From NCBI GenBank assembly GCA_942159475.1, contig OW804102.1, forward strand, positions 35,966,873-36,030,872: 64,000 bases of DNA. The letters are read 5' to 3'. This DNA is from Sthenelais limicola. Taxonomy: Eukaryota; Annelida; Polychaeta; Phyllodocida; Sigalionidae. The notes under the pieces are model-generated. The model saw only the letters and a program-made list of their open reading frames with translations. It made no database searches and had not been told where the DNA came from. This document shows, piece by piece, positions 3,671 to 60,945 of this stretch (position 1 is the first letter of the stretch; each line of letters begins with the position of its first letter). A program made the position numbers and the translations under genes.

Positions 3671-3688
3671 ATTTAAAACCGGTACAAG

Positions 3689-6022
3689 ATGGATCTCTAT
3701 AGATCCCTTTCTCTGTGCCTCGGCCTCTCGCTGATGCTGCTAGTCTGCACAACAACAGCAAAGAAACCTATCTGCGATGAGGAAGAATATAGTGATAATG
3801 AAGACCCAGCCCAGCTGACAGAACTCAGACAGGAGTGCCCAGATGATGGGACAGAAGTCTCAGAGGGAGAAGATGGCGTATTTAGTCTTGTTGTAGTGTT
3901 ACGTAATGGAACTGATGAAAGAAGAATTAAGCCTGGAAGCTCTGAGGATGATAGTGGCTCCTCCGAAAAATCCAGAAATTCTGGTGAGTCCAAATCAAAT
4001 TCAAAGTCCAAATCAAAATCAGAAAGTATTGATAGTTCCTTTGAAGAGGAAGATGATGGTGATGAAGAGGCAACAACCATAGGAATTGAGACTGAGCTAC
4101 GTCGGAGAAAAAGACAAACCGGGAAGGCACCGGCCAAGGCACCTGCAAAGGCACCTGCAAAGGCACCGGCAAAGGCACCTGCAAAGACACCTGCAAAGAC
4201 ACCTGCAAAGACAAAGGTAACCGGTAAAGCAGCAAAAGCAAAAGTGAAGGGATCATCAACCAGTGAAGATTCTGATAGTAGTAGTAGTAGTGACAGTGAC
4301 AGTGATGATGACAGTGATTCACAAGAGAAGAAAAACAATGTTAAGGGACTGGGGCAAGGACAACAACAGAGAAGTTCCCTTGAAGGAAATGCAAAAGGGA
4401 AAGGGAAAAGCTTTGCAAAAGGCAGATCTGGGGAGGAAAGTCAAGGAATGAAAGGATTCCACAGACACGCTTGCAAATCAAGAGGTCAAATAGAGAAGAT
4501 CAAAAGATTGCACAATGAGAAGAAAGAGAGATTTGGCAAACCAACAACCCTGAAATTCTTTGGTATCGCTTTTGACAGAGATAATGGCCAGGAATTGTAC
4601 ATTGAGTGTGTACCCAGAAGGGAGAAGGTGTGTGGAGTCAATGGAGGTTACCTTATTGACGACGGACTTGATCCAGTCAACTGCACTAACTTTAAAATCA
4701 GATGTGACATTAACTTCAGGGACAGCATCCTTGCCTATGGACTACTTGATATCTATCTCTTGAAGCAACGCGCCACCATACAAGGCAAAGGCCTTATTGT
4801 CAATGATATCAAATGGAATGTTGCTGTAAAAGACTTCGAGTGCATTGATGCTGCTGCTCTCAACATCAATTGTACTTCTATCAAAGTGGTGAGAGCTATT
4901 GTGCTTGCTGATTTGGGCAACAATCGGCCAGAGAATATTGAGGGTGCTGAGGAAGACATGAGGACAGTCTGTTTGGCTGATGACTTGTGTATAACTGGCA
5001 ATGGCGATGAGAAAAGTGGAGCCCATACTTTCTCAAAGAAGGTAACGATTTATTAATATAATTGTGCTTCTAAAAACATTAAATTCAATATTTCCATTTC
5101 TTCTGAGGCACCTGTAAGGCCAAGTAGGCATGTCACTGGTTCATCATCAGGAATGAGTATCATCTATTTTGTTTTAGTATTATCTGTATTTGTGTATTAT
5201 ACTAAAACTTTGGTTTTTCTATTACAATGTTTGAATCAGGGGTGGACCCAGAGGAGTCATTGCCAGAGGGTCTCTGCCCCCAATGCCTCCATTGAATCTA
5301 CCGTTGCCAAAGACACTACAAGTGTGGCTTTTAAGAGTCATTATATATTTATATGGGTGAAGCCACCAGAAAATGCACAATTCGCATTCACCAATACCTT
5401 AAACAAAATTTAACCCAAAAATAAGGTTCAAACACTTGAGTGGCCCGTTTATAAGCCCGGGCTTACAATTTTTTCAACCCCCCTTTAGCTCCGGCTTGCA
5501 ATTGAGATAGGCTTTTAATTGAGAATTCAATTTTAGTGGATTTATTTTTTCATGACCTCAATACCCCCGGCCTGCATTCAAGATAGCTTTTAAACAGGTC
5601 CCTGCTTATAAATGAGCCACTACGGTATACCCAAAATTCATCATTCATCAGCCAAATTAAGTAGAATTTACTCAAATGTGTAGAGCTGCCAACTGTACAA
5701 TTTCTGAGGACTTACTTGACTGACTCCTATCCTTCATTCTCTCTTCCAGTCATTGGTGGACAATTTGGAGAGGCCATTGGCAGACTTCCAGGCCTTGACG
5801 CAGAACACATTCAGGATTGGGTTCCAGCGGGGACGAACCATGCTACTGGACCCCATCACTGTACCCTCAACCAACACCTTAGATATAGAACAACTGGATG
5901 CACCCATTTTCACTGAACCTTACATAGATAGTGCTGCTGGTGGCCTGCACGGGGGCACTGATGTCTTCAGATTGCTCTCAGTATTAGTGCTTTATTTTAT
6001 GGCTAAATTTGTCTTATTTTAA
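3689..6022 (+). CDS. Secreted, low-complexity, probably GPI-anchored protein (2 coding exons)
   Basis: Model: exon 3689-5041 joined to 5750-6022, both in phase 0, giving 541 residues. The intron is AAG|GTAACG to CTCTTCCAG|TC. Residues 1-24 form a signal peptide (hydrophobic LGLSLMLLVC core). An acidic/Ser-Lys-rich segment follows, then a furin-like RRRKRQ at about 138-143. Next are tandem Lys-Ala-Pro-Ala/Lys-Thr-Pro-Ala repeats (about 146-176) and a Ser-Asp tract (about 190-211). From about residue 255 a Cys-containing globular domain begins (HACKS, IECVP, KVCGV, NCTNF, IRCD, FECID, INCTS, TVCLADDLC). The C-terminus has small residues SAAGGLHGG and then a hydrophobic tail ending the protein, as in GPI-anchor signals. 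The family is not recognised. The repeats resemble matrix or biomineral proteins only in composition, so function is unknown. The in-frame splice supports the model strongly. Confidence 0.8.
5366..5707. mobile_element. MITE family 1 copy, split by a second MITE
   Basis: The left end resembles CAGAAAATGYACAATT (about 5370) and the right end is its inverted form (AACTGTACAATTTCTGAG, about 5690). The interior is interrupted at 5438-5631 by another inverted-repeat element. It lies wholly inside the intron of the 3.69-kb gene. Confidence 0.55.
5438..5631. mobile_element. Short TIR element (MITE) nested in MITE family 1
   Basis: The ends are inverted repeats: AGTGGCCCGTTTATAAGC on the left against GCTTATAAATGAGCCACT on the right. 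It is about 194 bp with no coding capacity. A target duplication is not clear. Confidence 0.6.
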
Positions 6023-37205: not shown

Positions 37206-37604
37206 AGCATGCAAACTCCCACCAAGGTCAACTCCCACCAAGGTAAACTCCCACCTAGGCAAACTCCCACCAAGGCAAACTCCCTCCAAGGTCAACTCCC
37301 ACCATGACAGACTCCCACCAAGGCAAACTCCCACCAAGGTCAACTCCCACCATGACAAACTCCCACCAAGGCAAACTCCCACCAAGGTAAACTCCCACCA
37401 AGGTAACTCCCACCAAGGTAAACGCCCACCAAGGCAAACTCCCACCAAGGTAGACTCCCACCAAGGTAAACTCCCACCAAGGTAACTCCCACCAAGGTAA
37501 ACTCCCACCAAGGTAAACTCCCACCAAGGTAGACTCCCACCAAGGCAAACCCCCACCAAGGTAAACTCCTACCAAGGTAAAGTCCCATCAAGGTAAACTA
37601 TTCT
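37206..37604. repeat. Minisatellite, 16-bp unit (some 15-bp)
   Basis: About 25 tandem copies of AAACTCCCACCAAGGY with point variants. Because 16 is not a multiple of 3 and the unit lacks stops, long frames are open on both strands. These are artefacts. Confidence 0.95.
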
Positions 37605-37862: not shown

Positions 37863-39740
37863 GGTAAAATGGATAGAATCAAGTGACGTTCTGGACTAGG
37901 TAATGACTTTTAGATGGCTAAATTGTATGTTAAAATTGTGTGTTAAATTTATGTGGCCAATAAAAGTGTTTAGAATACAAAGTGCACCAGAAGCTCCTTC
38001 ATGTCAGTCATAAATCCCAACATAATTCGGCAATACATAGCAATCCCTTGGATTTACCTTTGGTAATAAATAACTGGTCATATAAATTGGACTGCAATGT
38101 CTGAATTTTTAATGTCAGAGTCAAGTTTGCTTAATGACTCATGAATATGAATACAGCAATTTTCAACTTTAATTTAGAAAAGGCCACCTGGAAGATCAGC
38201 AGTGTTGAAGGCTGTGTCCTCTTCTTGTATATTGTGAATAAAAGTTGTATAATAATAGAGACATGCATATAATGCATAATTAAATTGTTCTTCCTATTCC
38301 TGAGGTATTTCCGGTGGGTTGGGTTTGTAAAAGTACCATCATCCTTGGGTACGTTGCATAACAATTATGAATCTACAGCATGTCCTAAATTATTTTTTCT
38401 AAGACGAACAAGTCATTCTGCAGCTCGTAAATTCAACAGCGACATTTGCATTGCATAATAAGGAATTGTGAAATGGATGATTTCTCGTCACTGGAAAAAT
38501 GTTTTGGAACATAAATATATGTTAAATATTACTGTAGAATGTTGTTTCTGTTGTTGCTCGAAACTTATACTGGAATAGACCAGATATTCATGATATATAA
38601 TGTAGAATGAACATTCGAAATACACCTTTGGCCATTGTGTATTATGCAAGGCAGAATAATTATGCAGTGAATATGCTCTTGATTATTTTCTCTGAAAAAG
38701 TATCTATGACCATTTTCTTTCCATGAAATTATTATCATAATAATTATTAACCATGTTTTAATTTTTGCCACCTTACAACCATTCTTAGAATAGAAACTAA
38801 TCGAAAACTTTCCACATTTCACATGTGGATGCCAAGAGATATACGATGTCGTCGAGGATGTCGTCGATTTCGCAGATGCCTATCTACAACATTGTAGAAT
38901 CAATCCACTTTCTAGGAATATCATGTAAAAGTTACACCAGTCATGTATAAGCTATTAGATCGCCATTCCTGTCTGGTTTGCGTGTATTCTGTTTTTATTC
39001 TGTCATGATAAGTTCAATATCCTCATCTTAATCTTTGGTTACTTAAGAAGATAATTGATAAGTAACTAAACCTTTCAATGGCGTTTTCTCATCGTTAATT
39101 ATTGCAAGGATGAACGTAAAAAGCAGTGCAAAAATACTTACATTTTATCCAGTTGGTCATCAAACTCCCAAAAGATAATCCCTATATTGAATTTTATCCA
39201 TTCCAAAATCATGTTAAATGTGTATAATGCATGAAGAAGTGTGGTGGAGTGCTAACATGACAACGAGGCAAGAACTAGTTGAAACAAACTACTCATCATG
39301 TGGTGAGTGAATGGCCAGACTTGATGTAATGTAAAATGCTAAAGGGCATGATCCACTGCGACAATTTATAATCAATTTTTTGTTCACATCACTTATGATG
39401 TGCTGTCCCACTGCAATATGTGCTGTTTCTATCGACAGCCTATTTGTTTAATTAGACATTATCACTGTTCCCCCAACCTAATTACACATGATGAGGTAAA
39501 GTCAAATTTGCATGTTTCAGTTCATAAACGTTTGCTAGGTTTTAACACCTTTTTCATTCATATGGACTGCTTATTTATGTGTCTGTGGAGGCATACAGCA
39601 CCCAGGAATACTGTAATAAGTTTAACTTAAGGCTATATGAAAGTAAAACGTGAGGAAATGTTATTGTAAATTTTAGGGAAGATGACCGTAACATGATTGT
39701 GTAGTACAGAAATCATTCAGTCGCTTTACAGTCATTATTA
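37863..39740. other. Intergenic sequence, nothing recognised
   Basis: AT-rich sequence without recognised genes. A clear target-site duplication for the downstream LINE was not found here. Confidence 0.5.
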
Positions 39741-40109
39741 AGACGTAGCTGTCATGGCGGGTACACGCACTTTCTGAGAGCGGGACGCCCACTGTGATTA
39801 TCAGCCACTAGGAGAGGATATATTCGATCACCATCATCATTATTCGCCACATTGTTTCATTATGTTGGGAAGCATTGAAAGTTGTACAAATCAGGATTTA
39901 ATTTCCACCTAAATAGGAAATACGGACGATTCTATGTGTGTGTATGTGGACTAAGTGACCAGTGCATATGCACTAGGGACTGCTGGCCGAGGGACACCGG
40001 TACAGGGCACTCAGGTAGCTTGTTGTTTACAGTACATGTGTATACTATACGCGCTTATACAGTGCAGTTGGTTTTCGATATTGACTTTGACTATTGCCTA
40101 GGATACATA

Positions 40110-41861
40110 ATGGCAGAAGCTGACGGTGAAAATATAGCTGGGAGAGAGGGAGACATAGACGGTAGATTTACCCCCTTAGAATTAAAAGTCAATCGTCTGC
40201 AGGAAAATACCAACAAGCTCAACACCCGTGTTAAACAGTTAGAGATGGAAATGGCGCATATGCATTGCGTCACATCCAACCTCGAGAATTACTGTCTCGA
40301 TCTTGACAGGGGACAACGTAAAAGGCATATCATCCTGACAGGTCTTAGAGAAACTCCAGATGAATCCAAAAAGAATGCAAATGTCACCCTAACTCGAATG
40401 ATACGGATGTGTGGTCTCATCGACCAAACATTCATGGCAGGCGATCTGGAATTTGCTTCTCGCATAGGGGTTAAAAGCAAGAATAAGAAGGTCCACAGGA
40501 ATATAATACTGAAGTTCAAGGACGAAGACACCCGTAACAGAATCTTCAGGAGCAAAACTAGACTCAAACAAACCGAAGGATTCCAAAAGTGCTACATTAA
40601 CCCCGATCTGCCCGAGAAAACTGCCAAACGACAGGCAGACATGAGACAGGTAATGGCACATGCCAAAACCCTGGTGGGGAAACCAAAAGTATCACTTGCT
40701 AGGGGGAAAATCAAGGTAGGAGATACGGAATATTCCCATGAAGATCTAGACCAACTACCGGAAGGCCTTAAGATAACTCAAATCAAACAGAAAAACATAG
40801 CGGGGGCGATAGGATATCAAGGGGAGCACTCGCTCCTCTCTAACTTTAGCACCTCCTTCTTCAGATATAATGGAGTGGACTTCTGTTCGGCCGAACAGGC
40901 CTATCAATACACCAAGGCAATGAAAACCAAGAACCCATTAATTGCCAAGTCAATTAAAAGATCTACCTGCCCTCGAGCAACTAAGAAATTCGGGGAGCGT
41001 TGCGGAATGCACGAGAAATGGGATAAAGTCAAAAACCAAATTATGAGGAATATTCTCCACGCGAAGTTCCAACAAGACAAGGCCTCAAAAAAAGCTCTCC
41101 TAGGCACAGCCAACAACATCCTGGCAGAATGCACATATGATAGGTGGTGGGGGACTGGTATCCCTCTACACAGTGCTTCACTATGCGATGACCGAACTGC
41201 CTGGCCAGGATCCAATCACCATGGTATTCTCCTCATATCAGTCAGAGAGGAAATCAGAAGGAATGATAACCCTCCCCAAGTAGCTCAAGATCAAGATCTA
41301 GACGTCCTAGACAGCGACGATGACTTGCCAACCCTGGAGGAATCCATCAACCGTGAGGTTAACCGTGAAAGGGAGGCTGCAAGAGAATCAGAAGACGAAG
41401 ATAGAGAAGAACACCAAGAGGAAGGTAATGATCACGAATCTGACCACTCTGAGGCAACTGAATATGAGACCGACTCGGATGATCAATCAACTCACGATGA
41501 TACTGAAGAGATTCAGGAACCAGCACCAAACATTATCAACCCTGAACCACAACAACATGGAGAGGGTAATAATGGCTTGGCTGGACTAGAACAAGAGGAG
41601 GATCGGAACTCAATAGAAGGAACGCCTGACGTAGATACCCAGCATATGCCACCGAGAGCTGAAAGTAAACAGAGACACGTGCGCCAGGATGTAAACAATG
41701 CCCCGCCCACTGACGACAGCCAAAGAGGTCAACCCGTAGGCCTCGGTCCGAGAGTGAGAACACGTGCAGCCAGGGCATCGGACACTCTCAGCGCGGACAG
41801 ACAGACAGCAAGTGCCTCCGGCGAAACAGCACAAGCCACCTCGGACAGACCCGGTTCATGA
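40110..41861 (+). CDS. LINE ORF1: coiled coil, RNA-binding region, NADAR domain, acidic tail
   Basis: 583 residues from the ATG at 40110. The frame is open upstream to 39882 but begins there with a non-ATG codon, so 40110 is preferred. A heptad-rich coiled coil lies at about 25-51. An L1-ORF1p-like RNA-binding region starts with RHIILTGLRETPDE (about 71) and runs to about 225. A NADAR (YbiA-like) domain spans about 233-383: LLSNFSTSFF, SAEQAYQYTKAM, ILHAKFQQD, LLGTANNILAECTYD, WWGTG and a closing ILLISVREEI. A Glu/Asp-rich disordered tail follows. NADAR proteins act on N-glycosidic bonds, including removal of ADP-ribose from guanine in bacterial systems. The characteristic residues appear retained. 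Its role in transposition is inference. The stop overlaps the next start as ATGA. Confidence 0.85.
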   Translation: MAEADGENIAGREGDIDGRFTPLELKVNRLQENTNKLNTRVKQLEMEMAHMHCVTSNLENYCLDLDRGQRKRHIILTGLRETPDESKKNANVTLTRMIRMCGLIDQTFMAGDLEFASRIGVKSKNKKVHRNIILKFKDEDTRNRIFRSKTRLKQTEGFQKCYINPDLPEKTAKRQADMRQVMAHAKTLVGKPKVSLARGKIKVGDTEYSHEDLDQLPEGLKITQIKQKNIAGAIGYQGEHSLLSNFSTSFFRYNGVDFCSAEQAYQYTKAMKTKNPLIAKSIKRSTCPRATKKFGERCGMHEKWDKVKNQIMRNILHAKFQQDKASKKALLGTANNILAECTYDRWWGTGIPLHSASLCDDRTAWPGSNHHGILLISVREEIRRNDNPPQVAQDQDLDVLDSDDDLPTLEESINREVNREREAARESEDEDREEHQEEGNDHESDHSEATEYETDSDDQSTHDDTEEIQEPAPNIINPEPQQHGEGNNGLAGLEQEEDRNSIEGTPDVDTQHMPPRAESKQRHVRQDVNNAPPTDDSQRGQPVGLGPRVRTRAARASDTLSADRQTASASGETAQATSDRPGS

Positions 41862-42601
41862 GTAAATATCTAACTTTATTCTGCATATATATTGCCCAAC
41901 TCCTAGTGCCCTGTTTTACCTCGTCATACGTCTCATTCTCTGTCTGCTCTAAGACCACCAACATGGCAAATTTTGGCAACGACGCGTTGGGAGTGAAATC
42001 GGTCATTTTGGCCGACTCACGTGGCCGCCTGTTAGCTCCCTACCTAGATCACAGCGAGATCAGAATCCAATACTACCCCGGCAAGGGTGTCAGAAACCTG
42101 TTTTGCCTGGGAAGGCCTACTATTGCCCAGTATCAGCCCCAGCTCATCTACATTTTCGGTGGCATTTGCGACCTTACATTTAGACATCCAGTCACAAGGA
42201 GAGTAAGCTTGCGTTTCGGGGATGTTCAGACGACTGAGAACAATTTCATAGACCAAATTGAATGGGTATATGAGGCCTGCCGTGGGGAGTTTCCGGACAG
42301 CTGTCCTATTTTCTGCGGGGTCAATGGAATGAGTCTAAATGCGTATAATGGGGAAGTCCGTTTCAACCCAGATCAGATTGACCTTAATCAAACGGTGACA
42401 AACGTCAACTATTACGTAAAATCCAAGAACTTGGAAACTGGAGTTATCCATCCCACTCTTACGTCGAAGGTCCATAGAAGAAGCCAGGGGGTTACAGAGT
42501 TTAACTACCACTATCTGGTGGATGGCATACATCCTAAATGGCACGTTCTTCAAGACTGGGGAAGACAGTTCGTCAAGAATCATATCGCAAATACATATTA
42601 A
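41858..42601 (+). CDS. LINE SGNH/GDSL-type hydrolase ORF
   Basis: 247 residues. The start ATG at 41858 shares ATGA with the ORF1 stop, favouring termination-reinitiation. A second Met (MANFGNDALG, about residue 36) could be an alternative start; the preceding segment is hydrophobic. SGNH hydrolase blocks are visible: nucleophile block VILADSRGRLL (about 46-56), IYIFGGICDLT (block III-like, about 98-108) and DGIHP near 221-225 for the Asp-His pair. Esterase domains of this fold are known in ORF1 proteins of CR1-type and some other LINEs, where lipid or membrane binding has been proposed. Here it is a free-standing second frame. The Asn of the usual GxND block is replaced, so activity is uncertain. 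Confidence 0.75.
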   Translation: MSKYLTLFCIYIAQLLVPCFTSSYVSFSVCSKTTNMANFGNDALGVKSVILADSRGRLLAPYLDHSEIRIQYYPGKGVRNLFCLGRPTIAQYQPQLIYIFGGICDLTFRHPVTRRVSLRFGDVQTTENNFIDQIEWVYEACRGEFPDSCPIFCGVNGMSLNAYNGEVRFNPDQIDLNQTVTNVNYYVKSKNLETGVIHPTLTSKVHRRSQGVTEFNYHYLVDGIHPKWHVLQDWGRQFVKNHIANTY

Positions 42602-43389
42602 TATGGCAAATGCCACCCTCCCATATTTGTTTACTGGTCCCTGTACTTATACCGATGTTTGTATTTCAGTATGACATGTTATGTTGTGTTTTGTTGATCA
42701 TGTTTATACCGATGTACCTCTATGAGTGGGTAACTAGTACTATTAGTGGAAATACCGAAACCCACTATAATGGGAAATGTATTTGTTTGACCATACATAT
42801 TGCCATGTTGAAACGCAGTCTAGTACCTATATCTATGAATATGTGTGAGGATAGTCTAAAGCGTGTGTTCTCTCATGATAATTGTACTTGCCTGTCCACT
42901 TGTGCCCAGCACAACATAGGCATTGGAGCTGTTACACTAAGTAATAGTATTATCATAATTGTAGTTACTAAGTTGAGATGTAGTTTAATGTCTCTGACCA
43001 TAACTAAATCAATGTACCTGTATCTAACACTAGGTAGGCACCCCCCTCATCTGAATTGGTATTCTAGACCAAGCTACTTATGGCAAATGCCACTCCACTA
43101 CGCAACTCATTATAGGACGTTAGGTAAACAGGAGTTGGCTCTATACGAGCAGGGTATATATAGTCATTGTCTATCAGAGTTGCGTAAAGATTACTCTGTA
43201 CTTACCAGTGGTGCTTTTGTTATGTTATATTGGTATAAGAAGGAGGTGGACTCAACCACTACTCCATTGTTGTGTATTAGCTGTAAGATGAAATACTTAA
43301 ACACATGGCAAATGCCAAATTATCCCGTTGATAACAAGCTGCTGATTGAAGGTTATACCAGAATAACAGGCCTATGTAATAATGGCTAA
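42538..43389 (+). CDS. LINE third ORF, unknown protein
   Basis: A 283-codon ATG frame that overlaps the hydrolase frame by 64 nt and the EN-RT frame by 8 nt (ATGGCTAA), filling the whole gap between them. It has several hydrophobic stretches (ICLLVPVLIPMFVFQYDMLC and onward), scattered cysteines and three WQMP tetrapeptides produced by the TGGCAAATGCCA motif. No family recognised. Such length without a stop in AT-rich sequence argues for selection, but it could be a structured leader for ORF2 rather than a protein. Absence of a named domain keeps confidence low. Confidence 0.45.
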   Translation: MARSSRLGKTVRQESYRKYILIWQMPPSHICLLVPVLIPMFVFQYDMLCCVLLIMFIPMYLYEWVTSTISGNTETHYNGKCICLTIHIAMLKRSLVPISMNMCEDSLKRVFSHDNCTCLSTCAQHNIGIGAVTLSNSIIIIVVTKLRCSLMSLTITKSMYLYLTLGRHPPHLNWYSRPSYLWQMPLHYATHYRTLGKQELALYEQGIYSHCLSELRKDYSVLTSGAFVMLYWYKKEVDSTTTPLLCISCKMKYLNTWQMPNYPVDNKLLIEGYTRITGLCNNG

Positions 43390-46315
43390 GCCTACTACCA
43401 GTACCCTAAGAAAATCTATGTTATTTCTAAGGGAAGCTAAAGGTCGAAAGTTTCTATACCTAAATATAAGATCGATCATAAATAAATGGACACAATTTAA
43501 ATTGGACCTAGAACAAATTAAGTTTGATGTCCTTATGTGTGGTGAAACGTGGTTGCAGCCTAACATACTAGACGCCAATATCAATCTCCCGGGCTATGTA
43601 ATTGAAAGACTAGACAGGAGTAGAGCAGTGGGAGGGGGACTATGTGCGTTTATCAATGAAACACTAGAATACTCAATGGAACCCGAGCTGACCCACCTGA
43701 GTCGGGACTTAGAGTTGCAAACTATACGCATAATTTACCCGGAATCTAAAAATATGTTAATGTTAAGCTTGTACCGTCCACCGGCTGGCAGTATTCCAAA
43801 TTTTATTGCATTAATAAGTGACTATATAGATAAAGCCAGAGAAGCTTATCCGGGCCATGAACTGACGGTTCTTGGCGATGTCAATATAGACACGACCCCC
43901 AGACCACAATATACCAATAACAATAGGCAGGACTTCATTAACTTGAGCAAAGATAAATATCTAAAACTATTAATTGATTTACCTACAAGGGATGGTAATA
44001 AGGACAAACCGTCAATCATTGATCATATCCTCACCGACATTAAGTATGTCAGTGACTCGGGTGTGATCCAATACAACTTAAGTGATCACAATATGATATA
44101 CTTAATCAAAAAAAAGGCTAGAGAGAAATATGTCAAAAGTAACTTTAAAGCAAGATCATACTCCAACCTAAGTCAGGAGGCCATCAATCACGAACTTGGT
44201 GGGATTAGAGACTGGAATACGCTGTACTCCCTGACAAGTGCGGATGAAGCCTGGGACTTTGTACTTAATAAATACGTAATGGTCTCAGACAAACTCTGTC
44301 CGAAGAAAAAATACAAGGCCAAAAAGAATAAACCCCCCTGGTATTCTAATGAACTCCTAAATTTAGCCTATAATAGAGATTATAATTTCAGACGATTTAG
44401 AAAGACACGGCGAGAGGAATTCAGAGTTAGAGCAGTATTCTTTAGGAACCAGGCCAATAATGAAACACGTATGGCCAGGAGTAGATACTTCCAGCAAGAA
44501 TTAGAGCGTTATAAATATGACTACAAAAAATTCTGGAAAATTCTGAATGAATACCTACCTTTCAAGAACAACCAATCCCAGATTAACAAGGTACTAGATC
44601 CAACTACACTATCGATGGCATATGCCGGGGACATACCACCTATTATTAATAAGTACTTCGCTACCATTGGTGCAACAATAGCGTCAGACATGACGGCGCA
44701 AGCTACCAACAACGATCAGGTACAACCTATCCAGGGTAACATAGACATGGCTAATGCCAACTATAAACCGATTGACATGGTATCATTATCAAAAATCCTG
44801 GATGACCTAGTTATATCCAAGTCATCTGGGTGCGACGAAATATCAATGAAAATATACAAGATGCTCTTTAATGGTTCGAAACAACAACTTATATTTTTAT
44901 ATAACCTATCTGTTAATACAGGCACTATGCCAACGAAATGGAAATCGGCAACAGTAATACCTATACCAAAGAAAGGAAACGCAACCCATGTTACTAATTT
45001 AAGACCAATTTCACTAACTCATGTGGCCGGCAAGGTATTGGAGAAACATATTAATAACCAGCTACAAGAATTAATTGAAAATAATGATGTTATATTGCCT
45101 CAGCAGGGAGGTTTTAGAAAGAACTCTTCCACCATTGAAACCATTTATCTACTATTGTATAAACTAGTTAACAACAGAAATGACAAGAAAGATAGCACAT
45201 TGGTCTTCTTCGATTATAAGAAGGCCTTTGATTCGATTGATCACGATTTATTATTAGGCAAACTATCGAAATATAACTTCCCGAACTGGCTTGTCAAGTG
45301 GCTGACTAACTACCTGAGTAAAAGATCTCAAAAGGTTAAGGTGGGGGAACATCAATCAGGGTACCTTCCTATTAGGCATGGAGTACCGCAGGGCTCCATA
45401 CTCGGTCCAATATTATTTAATATATTTGTGAATGACATATGTACAATCCCAATTGAGGGAGATATGCTGCTATTTGCAGATGATATTGTTCTAGTCAATA
45501 GTGCTAACAACCGTAACGAGCTAATTGGCCAATGCCAAAATGACACACAACTAATAGCCGAGTGGAGCCTGCGAAATAAACTCTGTATCAGCCTACCTAA
45601 AACGAAAACGATGTTAATTCCGGAAAGTATTAGACATACTGACCCACCAGTACGGAAAATATCCATAAATAATGTCGATTTGGATTGGGTGGAAACATTC
45701 ACCTACCTAGGTCTGACATTTGATGTGAAACTCAATTTTGATGACATGATTAAGTCGGTTATTAGTAAGGCAAATGCCAGACTAAGTAATCTTTATATAA
45801 ATAGACATGCATTGGATGTTAAAACCAGAACCCTCTTGGTCAAATCAATGGTTCTGAGCTATTTGGACTATGCGAATGCCTGCTATATGAATAGTAGCCA
45901 AACTCTCCTAACGCAACTGCAAGTAGTGCAGAATAAATCACTCAGGTTTGCATTAAAAAAAACAAGAAGGCACAATGTTGATGACCTTCATAGACTCTCT
46001 AACACCATGACCATACGAGAGCGTATATACTTTAATAACTTAAAATTCTTCCACAAGCAATTACACCATTGTAGACTAGATTGGATAGAAAGGAGGAGAC
46101 CAAACAGGGCATATGCCCTCAGGGAGAATTGGAGGTTGAATTTCGAGGTAAACCGACCATATTGTACCTCATACCAAAAGTCGCTTGCCTATACCGGCAT
46201 ACTACAGTGGAATAAATTAGAAGACGGAATTAAGAATATCGAATCCCTGTGCAGTTTCAAGTATAAAGTTAAAAATGGGATATTAGCTAAAACTATTCGC
46301 ATACCTATATTATAG
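43382..46315 (+). CDS. LINE ORF2: APE-type endonuclease and reverse transcriptase
   Basis: 977 residues. Endonuclease motifs: YLNIRSIINKW (about 26-36), CGETWL (about 53-58), SLYRPPAGS, LGDVNIDT, IIDHILTD and LSDHNMIYL (about 234-242). RT motifs: KSATVIPIPKKG, LRPISLT, QQGGFRKNSST, VFFDYKKAFDSIDH (about 609-622), GVPQGSILGPILFN (about 666-679), the catalytic FADD (about 698-701) and YLGLTFD. A conserved C-terminal region follows; no RNase H domain recognised. Target-primed reverse transcription at nicked DNA is the family's known mechanism. The frame is complete. It starts in an 8-nt overlap with the upstream frame, which favours reinitiation. Confidence 0.95.
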   Translation: MAKPTTSTLRKSMLFLREAKGRKFLYLNIRSIINKWTQFKLDLEQIKFDVLMCGETWLQPNILDANINLPGYVIERLDRSRAVGGGLCAFINETLEYSMEPELTHLSRDLELQTIRIIYPESKNMLMLSLYRPPAGSIPNFIALISDYIDKAREAYPGHELTVLGDVNIDTTPRPQYTNNNRQDFINLSKDKYLKLLIDLPTRDGNKDKPSIIDHILTDIKYVSDSGVIQYNLSDHNMIYLIKKKAREKYVKSNFKARSYSNLSQEAINHELGGIRDWNTLYSLTSADEAWDFVLNKYVMVSDKLCPKKKYKAKKNKPPWYSNELLNLAYNRDYNFRRFRKTRREEFRVRAVFFRNQANNETRMARSRYFQQELERYKYDYKKFWKILNEYLPFKNNQSQINKVLDPTTLSMAYAGDIPPIINKYFATIGATIASDMTAQATNNDQVQPIQGNIDMANANYKPIDMVSLSKILDDLVISKSSGCDEISMKIYKMLFNGSKQQLIFLYNLSVNTGTMPTKWKSATVIPIPKKGNATHVTNLRPISLTHVAGKVLEKHINNQLQELIENNDVILPQQGGFRKNSSTIETIYLLLYKLVNNRNDKKDSTLVFFDYKKAFDSIDHDLLLGKLSKYNFPNWLVKWLTNYLSKRSQKVKVGEHQSGYLPIRHGVPQGSILGPILFNIFVNDICTIPIEGDMLLFADDIVLVNSANNRNELIGQCQNDTQLIAEWSLRNKLCISLPKTKTMLIPESIRHTDPPVRKISINNVDLDWVETFTYLGLTFDVKLNFDDMIKSVISKANARLSNLYINRHALDVKTRTLLVKSMVLSYLDYANACYMNSSQTLLTQLQVVQNKSLRFALKKTRRHNVDDLHRLSNTMTIRERIYFNNLKFFHKQLHHCRLDWIERRRPNRAYALRENWRLNFEVNRPYCTSYQKSLAYTGILQWNKLEDGIKNIESLCSFKYKVKNGILAKTIRIPIL

Positions 46316-46565
46316 ACGGTAATTATTATTAGAATCCATTGTTATATGACATATTGCATAAATATTATGCACCCAACATTTCATATATCACAGTATCACC
46401 TACATTTCATCTCATCATTTCTACTCATCTAAACATTCTCTCCATTGATATAGACAATATGATAACAAACAGCTAAATTAAGATAGCTACTATTGTCAAT
46501 TTTGAAAAATGCGAAATTTCAGGATCCAGTGGAATACCGGGATTACCCGAACTGATTAAAAATTA

Positions 46566-46577
46566 TGGCAAATGCCA
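46566..46577 (+). promoter_or_regulatory. 3' UTR copy of TGGC-AAAT-GCCA motif
   Basis: A 4-bp stem, 4-nt loop hairpin candidate 38 nt before the A-tail. The longer TATGGCAAATGCCACC is shared exactly with 42602-42617, just after the hydrolase stop codon. Further copies occur within the element. It could be an RT or RNA-binding-protein recognition element. Confidence 0.45.
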
Positions 46578-46589
46578 CCTATTCTCCTG

Positions 46590-46595
46590 AATAAA
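46590..46595 (+). terminator. Poly(A) signal of the LINE
   Basis: AATAAA eight bases before the 15-A tail. Confidence 0.85.
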
Positions 46596-46618
46596 GATTT
46601 GTCAAAAAAAAAAAAAAA

Positions 46619-47580
46619 TTATGTAATGTTACCTCATCACTATCAGAATTGAAAACTTGTTGTCATGATGACATTATTGATGAATTCCATATGATCTAAT
46701 ATTAGAAAATATTAACATTAACCTGCCTGTATATGAGGCGCATAAGTCCTTACAGTAAAAGACCGATACAACGGTAGCAATAACAACAAAACTGCAGAAT
46801 ATATCATTTTATTGATCATTGCATGTTTATGTATACTGAATGTGTTAGAATTAAGAACTTGGGATTGGGGTTGGCTGAATTGAAGGAGAAATAATATAAA
46901 TGAGATAAGATATGAATATCGACACAACAAAAACTTCAATGAAAACGAACAATGAACTTTGTCGATAAAACATTTTTTAAAAATTTTAATATTTGATAAG
47001 AACACAGGACTGTGAGGAACAGTGAATCCTATAAGAAGAAAGTAAAGACTCGAACTCGAGCCGGGGTGGGGGGGAAAGGGTATTATTAACTTCACATTTC
47101 CCATTTACATTTTGTATATTGTATTGTAATAATGATCCGGATATGTACCATTTGCAATTTAATGATGTTCGTAAAGGTAAAATAATCTAATGAACTAGCT
47201 GGCCGCACCAGGAAGATCTGAAATATCAGAGGCTGCAAGCCAGGTTCTGAGCGATGTAAATGTAAATGTATATTGATGAAATCAGAATAAAAATACAATA
47301 TATATATATTGATGATGATCTCTGATGATCATTTTCATACATATCAGAGCTATATAATTACTGAAAGACAGATATGTAAACAATGTTCCCAATGATAAGG
47401 TAAAGCGGTTTAAAAATAGGCAAAGCGGTTTTCTTGATTGGTGTGGTCACAGTCATTATCACACTCCACAGGTTATAGTATAGATTGAAAATAAATTCGA
47501 TATGAATGTTTCTACCGCTCCAGCTTTCTTTCTCAATATCAGTCTATAATGATTTTTTAAAAATCGCTTCTATACCACTT
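46619..47580. other. Intergenic sequence, nothing recognised
   Basis: Non-coding. The sequence right after the A-tail (ATGTAATGTTACC) resembles stretches at 8021 and 63610 and may be part of a pre-existing repeat into which the LINE inserted. Confidence 0.4.
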
Positions 47581-59740: not shown

Positions 59741-60355
59741 GTAATATAAAACAGTGTCCTGATACATGTCAAGGATTCTTATAGTTAATACATCCTTATA
59801 TTCCAAGTAATAAGCTCCTGATTTGCCAAGACACATTGCAGAGAAGTCTTCAGTACGTATTTGTACTGGAATTGATATTTTTGAAAACCTCCCTAAATTG
59901 GCAAATCTTTCCGAAATGTATCCACCATTTATAACCAATATTCGTCAAAACTAAAAAATTCACATGGTTTCAAAGTCCTCAAAAAATAAGAATGCCCATT
60001 TTCTCTCAAAATGTTCAATACTTTAAGGCGCGACATGCATCCCTGCAAAGTCAAATCTGATGCTAGTGAAACGGATTCCACCAAATTCCAATCAGTTTTT
60101 ACCTTAGACTCTGGTCATTTTTGTTTTTATATCAATTATATTTCGCGAGAAAACTTATGGCAATTGATGAATGAAGGGAAAGTTCCCTGCTTCCAACCTC
60201 CCGATTTGATCATCTTTTTTTCCATCAATTTTCTTCAAAATTAAGCGTTTTTCATTTGAAACAATTGACAATCAGCAATGTTGTCTGGGCCGACCATTGT
60301 CCTCAACTTGTTAGTGCAACATTTGGAATGGTTGATCGACTTTTATTTTTTATTG
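59741..60355. other. Intron or intergenic, nothing recognised
   Basis: No exon with an NADDA-type motif was found. Confidence 0.4.
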
Positions 60356-60379
60356 TTAGCTCGTTTGAACGAGCTAACT
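60356..60379. repeat. Short perfect-stem hairpin
   Basis: GTTAGCTCGT-loop-ACGAGCTAAC, ten paired bases with a four-base loop. It may mark the end of a mobile element. Confidence 0.6.
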
Positions 60380-60424
60380 ACTATAATTACTTTGCCCCTC
60401 GGACCTTGTCCCGGCAATTGTGCC

Positions 60425-60665
60425 ACTTGCCGGCCTGCCCTGCCTCCTCCTCCAGCCCTCCTCACCTTCCAATTTACGTGCTCAAATTCCCGATTTCCAG
60501 ACTGGCGCCTCACCCGCTCCTCCTCCTCCTCCTCCTCCCCCTCCTCCTCCCCCCCTCTCCTCTCCTCCTCTCCTCCTCTCCTCCTCCCCCTCTCCTCTCC
60601 TCCTCTCCTCCTCCTCCCCCTCTCCTCCTCTCCTCCTCTCCTCCTCCCACTCCCTCTCGCTCTCA
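60425..60665. repeat. Pyrimidine-rich (CTCCTC)n tract
   Basis: Long CTC/CCT-rich run on the + strand. Long frames through it on both strands are Ser/Pro/Leu or Arg/Gly/Glu artefacts. Confidence 0.85.
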
Positions 60666-60945
60666 GGATGCCCGTGGTGACCTGCGTCATCCCGAGTGGT
60701 GGTGCTTGGGAGAGCCCACCACTGCTACCAACCCAATACATCCCTATGCCTGAGGTTCTTATATAGTCACCTATGGTCATCCAATGAAAAAAACGGTGTC
60801 TTAAACTCGGGTCAAGGCATTAGAATACATACGTCGATTTCACATATAGGAATTGAGAGTCAAAACATTGAAAATATGATCGCTTGAGAGGAGAGACACC
60901 CAGTGGCAGACTCATGAACTAACCAACCGGAAAAGCAAATTTTGA

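Follow-up and report, generated by a model that had tools for sequence, protein, structure and literature searches.

Known NADAR fusions and their relation to this locus

NADAR domains have already been recorded inside retroelements. A 2025 paper describes YbiA-family NADARs in the ORF1 of several Tx1 LINEs of the oyster Crassostrea gigas, taken from Repbase, together with a single Gypsy lineage of the brown alga Ectocarpus whose Pol carries a NADAR N-terminally; its authors suggest that these domains may process the RNA intermediate (PMC12477816). Among the matches listed in the open-licence literature, this was the sole report found of a NADAR in a LINE. A comparable partnership occurs in positive-strand RNA viruses of invertebrates, where the domain is joined to proteins with which an RNA-templated parasite is replicated or packaged. 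One survey records NADARs from viruses with RNA genomes in crustaceans, insects, nematodes, annelids and bivalves, mostly where macrodomains are absent, and proposes that they reverse host ADP-ribosylation (PMC9503650).

The locus described here lies in a 64,000-nucleotide window of Sthenelais limicola DNA, the whole stretch that was analysed, and carries a full-length YbiA-type NADAR built into the ORF1 protein of a LINE. The fusion is not the first of its kind, because the oyster Tx1 elements precede it (PMC12477816). Unlike the Ectocarpus case, in which a retroelement polyprotein of an LTR element bears the domain in Pol, and unlike the RNA viruses, in which the domain sits in the RdRp polyprotein, the annelid case is a LINE in the genome, and ORF1 is where its NADAR lies. 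For the Jockey superfamily, one study reports shuffling of ORF1 domains and perhaps their transfer as a whole (PMC4120745); the word NADAR has no occurrence in that paper. Tx1 is placed in the L1 superfamily (PMC11203168).

The reverse transcriptase encoded by ORF2 of the annelid element reads GVPQGSILGP, against GTRQGCPLSP in human L1. We take the former motif (VPQGS.LGP) to be of the Jockey-superfamily type, found in CR1, L2 and their relatives, and the latter to be of the L1-superfamily type. With this motif of presumed Jockey/CR1 type and its four chained ORFs, the element seems to be other than an oyster Tx1 LINE. The two are alike in carrying a YbiA-family NADAR in a LINE ORF1 protein and differ, going by the published description of the oyster elements, in presumed superfamily. 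What was known is the fusion in an oyster LINE ORF1; what seems new is its presence in a LINE with an apparently different type of reverse transcriptase.

Architecture of the element

The LINE occupies 39700..46618 on the forward strand, as do all its features given below. Its 3' end is fixed exactly by a poly(A) tail of 15 A (46604..46618, +) downstream of AATAAA, and its 5' coordinate is a working figure, with the real end falling between about 39330 and 40100. A target-site candidate of nine exactly matching nucleotides, at 46621 and 39324, was equalled by 162 of 2000 resampled upstream sequences (about 1 in 12), so the position of the 5' end is uncertain. The APE endonuclease and reverse transcriptase in ORF2, together with the 3' poly(A) tail, identify an APE-type non-LTR retrotransposon. 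ORF2 itself (43382..46315, +; 977 aa) matches the Pfam families RVT_1 at residues 528-780 (E 4.8e-38) and Exo_endo_phos_2 (E 3.2e-7), both above cut-off.

Four ORFs, all open in this copy, run into one another as a chain that begins with ORF1, and we infer that all of them are carried on one RNA. With these open frames and its poly(A) tail, the element is apparently intact. For this one copy, a decayed relic was rejected in view of the open frames and the retained catalytic positions discussed below. Neither tblastn (E 0.01) nor blastn (E 0.001) detected further copies or fragments of the LINE in the window. No relatives of the LINE were found in viral contigs, either with the NADAR part or with ORF2, and no RNA family reached its gathering score within the window.

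A full-length NADAR domain in ORF1

ORF1 (40110..41861, +; 583 aa; start context ATAATGG) consists of 583 codons without interruption. Residues 239-383 (40824..41258, +) match the Pfam NADAR family PF08719 in hmmscan at E 6.3e-28, scoring 98.5 bits against a cut-off of 35.1 and covering positions 9-163 of a 163-position profile. An E-value of this size rules out a chance match. The NCBIfam model TIGR02464 is likewise exceeded (99.7 bits, cut-off 73.7), and membership of the NADAR family anti-phage protein subfamily NF053876 is excluded (38.9 bits, cut-off 240).

Two PDB structures pass an E-value limit of 0.001 in a search by sequence: YbiA of E. coli (2B3W; 6.6e-9) and the NADAR of Phytophthora nicotianae (8BAU; 6.1e-7), the latter solved with ADP-ribose. 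Both proteins differ from the present one in lying outside retroelements, and they share 25-28% identity with the ORF1 domain. The AlphaFold2 model shows the NADAR fold, with block-mean pLDDT values of 93-98 over residues 241-390, except for the block 351-360 at 82. When this model was searched against BFVD, 50 matches were obtained at E up to 0.001; many belong to giant viruses and phages, and proteins of Wenling nido-like virus 1, gill-associated virus and yellow head virus are among them.

The preliminary description had placed an undisrupted NADAR domain in a retrotransposon ORF1, at 40807-41258, on the basis of six peptides, and had suggested an HMM search and a structure prediction as checks. 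All six peptides occur in the translation in the order it gave, and the open frame, the two profile scores and the predicted fold bear the domain out. It had further set the domain between an L1-ORF1p-like region and an acidic tail, and here the outcome is divided. The tail is present at residues 391-583 (41280..41858, +), with a pI of 4.2 and 52 Asp/Glu residues against 17 Lys/Arg. Upstream, AlphaFold2 predicts a coiled coil or long helix at residues 22-66 (40173..40307, +), with block pLDDT of 80-94 over residues 21-60 and 65 over residues 61-70. The basic middle part between helix and NADAR (residues 66-232; 40305..40805, +; pI 10.1) might hold an RRM and a C-terminal domain, and is modelled with low pLDDT. 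An L1-ORF1p-like RRM did not emerge from the comparisons made: ORF1 has no Pfam match to RRM or Transposase_22, the middle part finds no sequence counterpart in the PDB, even with E allowed up to 10, and no RRM is named among the 245 aligned of 252 Foldseek-ranked chains. As for the features of a type II (L1-like) ORF1, then, the long helix is predicted, and the RRM with its C-terminal domain is without a match.

The active site

Residues were mapped by alignment to 8BAU, and conservation was read from two sets of relatives, 10 from phages and 67 from viral contigs, the latter giving 68 rows with the ORF1 NADAR included. The ADP-ribose contacts in 8BAU, and the residues whose mutation abolishes activity, are described in PMC11543638. 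All three mutation-tested catalytic residues are present in the ORF1 domain (8BAU numbering first): E43 corresponds to E262, K50 to K269 and E125 to E340. Four further residues are retained as well, namely the pyrophosphate contacts K75, as K292, and W89, as W304, together with D130 as D344 and W133 as W347. None of the 10 phage or 67 viral-contig relatives departs from the ORF1 domain at E262, K269, W304, E340 or D344. The 68 rows share ten invariant columns, which include all three catalytic positions tested by mutation. A Glu at the E125 position, as opposed to Asp or His, marks the YbiA subfamily (PMC11543638); E340 therefore places the ORF1 domain in that subfamily.

Two substitutions set the pocket apart. 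Arg79 of 8BAU, which contacts and protects the pyrophosphate of ADP-ribose (PMC11543638), is Glu296 in the ORF1 NADAR. An acidic residue is found here in none of the 67 viral-contig relatives (54 Arg, 8 Lys, 4 Gln and 1 His) and in none of the 10 phage relatives (9 Arg and 1 Lys). An arginine, R297, immediately follows E296. The adenine-stacking Tyr84 aligns with His301, and R93, another pyrophosphate contact, aligns with K308, a position at which Lys also occurs in 24 of the 67 and 7 of the 10 relatives. The tested residues of the site are thus complete, yet its substrate binding may differ.

A proposed role in erasing ADP-ribose from guanine

Several studies define what NADARs can remove. 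Bacterial NADARs and one oomycete NADAR take ADP-ribose off guanine in single-stranded DNA (PMC11543638). For RNA, a comparison of three hydrolase families in one study found guanosine to be freed of ADP-ribose by NADARs alone, and by every NADAR tried; the same enzymes were inactive on ADP-ribose at phosphate ends of RNA (PMC11833690). On uracil modified by PARP10, NADAR activity was absent or negligible (PMC13036486). The preliminary description had credited some bacterial NADARs with acting on guanine in DNA, and these reports agree with it and add RNA to the substrates.

Our leading proposal, held tentatively and at somewhat less than an even chance, is that the ORF1 NADAR hydrolyses guanine-linked ADP-ribose on the RNA or cDNA of the element and so keeps the template readable under host attack. 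The ORF1 protein, which we assume to bind RNA by analogy with other LINEs, would coat the element RNA and thereby place the NADAR beside that RNA and the cDNA made from it. The domain would then cleave the N-glycosidic bond of ADP-ribose on guanine in the element RNA or the nascent cDNA, before or during reverse transcription. In this way the reverse transcriptase could still read a template modified by a host guanine ADP-ribosyltransferase resembling CARP-1 of shellfish, or by some other defence that uses NAD. The proposal is supported by the family and fold of the domain, its catalytic residues, the intact state of the element, the activity of its relatives and the occurrence of NADARs in invertebrate RNA viruses. 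Against it, and in the one copy available, stand Glu296 at the pyrophosphate-contact site and the unmatched Tyr84 (His301). The literature consulted contained no report of guanine ADP-ribosylation of a retrotransposon, and nematode SNA-3, taken up below, is an animal NADAR at work outside any known conflict.

The idea of an eraser of ADP-ribosylation was already part of the preliminary description, which named a PARP- or DarT-like host defence as its opponent. The eraser itself gains from the full-length NADAR in an open LINE, from the presence of E262, K269 and E340 and from the published activity of the family, and is weakened by the replacement of R79 with E296. The poorer fit is with a PARP as likely attacker, since NADARs leave phosphate-end ADP-ribose untouched and have little or no effect on uracil modified by PARP10. 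If the domain is an eraser, it would be expected to act on guanine, and the attacker would not be expected to be a mammalian-type PARP. Guanine-N2 ADP-ribosylating activity is documented in six clams, from one of which CARP-1 was cloned (PMC11209040). Roles for such enzymes in clams and butterflies have only been proposed, and the roles of animal NADARs are described as unclear (PMC8053099; PMC11125620). A retrotransposon whose ORF1 NADAR retains the catalytic residues suggests element RNA or cDNA as a substrate and enzymes of this sort as the attackers. That the RNP-tethered eraser is specifically a counter-defence against an animal enzyme of the CARP-1 kind is a further step, which we consider somewhat unlikely.

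The replicase polyproteins of animal RNA viruses, with their NADARs and macrodomains, offer a parallel to the LINE ORF1 NADAR. If this counter-defence reading holds, invertebrate retrotransposons and RNA viruses would have converged on NADAR, much as vertebrate RNA viruses use macrodomains, and nucleic-acid ADP-ribosylation would count as an anti-transposon defence in animals. A fusion present in oyster Tx1 elements, in a LINE that we take to be of Jockey type and in algal LTR elements would have been gained repeatedly or have moved between elements, and either course would speak for selection. The combination of NADAR and LINE also makes the idea of anti-ADP-ribosylation directly testable.

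Other readings of the domain

The NADAR may instead serve the RNA metabolism of the element itself, in the processing or translation of its four-ORF RNA or on ADP-ribose-containing RNA, with no host attack involved. An animal precedent exists in nematode SNA-3, a NADAR protein that takes part in spliced-leader trans-splicing and thus in RNA processing with no known conflict (PMC9303266). The suggestion of RNA-intermediate processing in the Ectocarpus paper (PMC12477816) and the four chained ORFs of the LINE point the same way. Set against this, the NADARs tested had no action on phosphate-end ADP-ribose of RNA (PMC11833690), RNA end processing was not found reported for the family, and the single RNA for all four ORFs is itself inferred. 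We regard this reading as unlikely, though it survives best among the alternatives.

An N-glycosidase of another specificity, acting on a small ADP-ribose derivative, cyclic ADP-ribose or intermediates of the riboflavin type, is less probable still. Such a role would suit the name of TIGR02464, riboflavin biosynthesis intermediates N-glycosidase, as well as the presence of Glu296 in place of the usual Arg, and for phage NADARs the main substrates proposed are small derivatives of ADP-ribose (PMC9503650). An enzyme for small molecules, however, would have no obvious gain from fusion to an RNP protein.

We give the same low credence to a domain kept as a basic folded part of the RNP, for structure or nucleic-acid binding, without catalysis. 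Residues 233-390 have a pI of 9.6 with 24 Lys/Arg against 14 Asp/Glu, and one contact residue is reversed in charge, which is consistent with such a role. A pure binding domain, however, need not keep the ten columns that are invariant in 68 rows, including the three tested catalytic positions.

An assembly chimera, or an isolated event in which this copy picked up a NADAR gene from the host or a contaminant, draws on the fact that a single copy was observed, but is highly improbable given the uninterrupted frame with coding sequence on both sides, the third-position GC of 0.47, 0.51 and 0.42 across the three parts of ORF1, an identity of at most 39% to phage, plasmid and viral-contig NADARs among the matches listed, and the oyster LINE fusion already in print (PMC12477816).

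Second ORF, ORFx and a reiterated palindrome

Downstream of ORF1, the second ORF (41858..42601, +) is weakly SGNH/GDSL-hydrolase-like. Its ATG at 41858 overlaps the ORF1 stop (ATGA), and a stronger start context lies at 41963. Lipase_GDSL_2 is matched at E 0.034 from 41963 and at 0.051 from 41858, below the cut-off in both cases, with 15.1 bits against the 32.9 required for an SGNH esterase. A structure model from the single sequence has a mean pLDDT of 31.6, too poor for the fold to be read. By eye, the motifs ADSRG, GGICD and DGIH can be picked out. Their presumed counterparts in SGNH hydrolases are the serine motif, GxxD and DxxH, with Cys here replacing Asn. If translation starts at 41858, the protein has a hydrophobic N-terminus. 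The esterase-carrying ORF1 of LINEs such as ZfL2-1 is a similar case of an enzyme domain added to the first-ORF proteins of a LINE, and may share the SGNH fold with the second ORF here (PMC3905857); it differs in that the SGNH-like part here, weakly assigned at E 0.034, forms a separate second ORF.

The third ORF, ORFx (42538..43389, +; 283 aa), is hydrophobic and overlaps the second ORF at one end and ORF2 at the other, where the start of ORF2 overlaps the ORFx stop as ATGGCTAA. Over the 259 codons between its neighbours, the ORFx frame is free of stops, whereas the other two frames contain 23 and 27. None of 2000 dinucleotide shuffles produced an open frame as long, the longest reaching 144. 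ORFx contains several hydrophobic stretches and has no convincing family match in Pfam.

The palindrome GGCANNTGCC recurs in eight copies along the element (span 40655..46576, +), beginning at 40655, 42605, 43082, 43307, 44617, 45769, 46108 and 46567. All eight copies in the window fall inside the LINE and none elsewhere in the 64 kb. Shuffling the window 100 times gave a mean of 0.66 copies and at most 3, and resampling only the element 1000 times gave a mean of 0.06 and at most 2. The next most frequent palindrome of the same shape in the element has 2 copies. ATGGCAAATGCCA, of which GGCANNTGCC is the core and inside which it mostly lies, is the top direct-repeat family of the element region, with 6 copies. 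The palindrome reads as Met/Lys/Arg-Ala-X-Ala in ORF1 and ORF2 and as Trp-Gln-Met-Pro three times in ORFx, and occurs once in the 3' UTR. Because the same word appears in two frames and in non-coding DNA, the repeat points to a putative nucleic-acid function. Its identity as an NFI site was dropped, since the spacing of such a site differs from that of GGCANNTGCC by one base.

Elsewhere in the window, open frames overlap on both strands at 60175-60819 in a low-complexity stretch rich in Pro, Ser and Arg, and are probably not genes. An open frame of 459 aa at 3677-5056, with no notable Pfam match, opens with a signal-like sequence and contains KAPAKAPAKTPAKT repeats as well as acidic stretches and stretches rich in Ser and Lys. 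Upstream of the LINE, a tandem array at 37213-37599 comprises 24.3 copies of a 16-base unit with the consensus AAACTCCCACCAAGGT.
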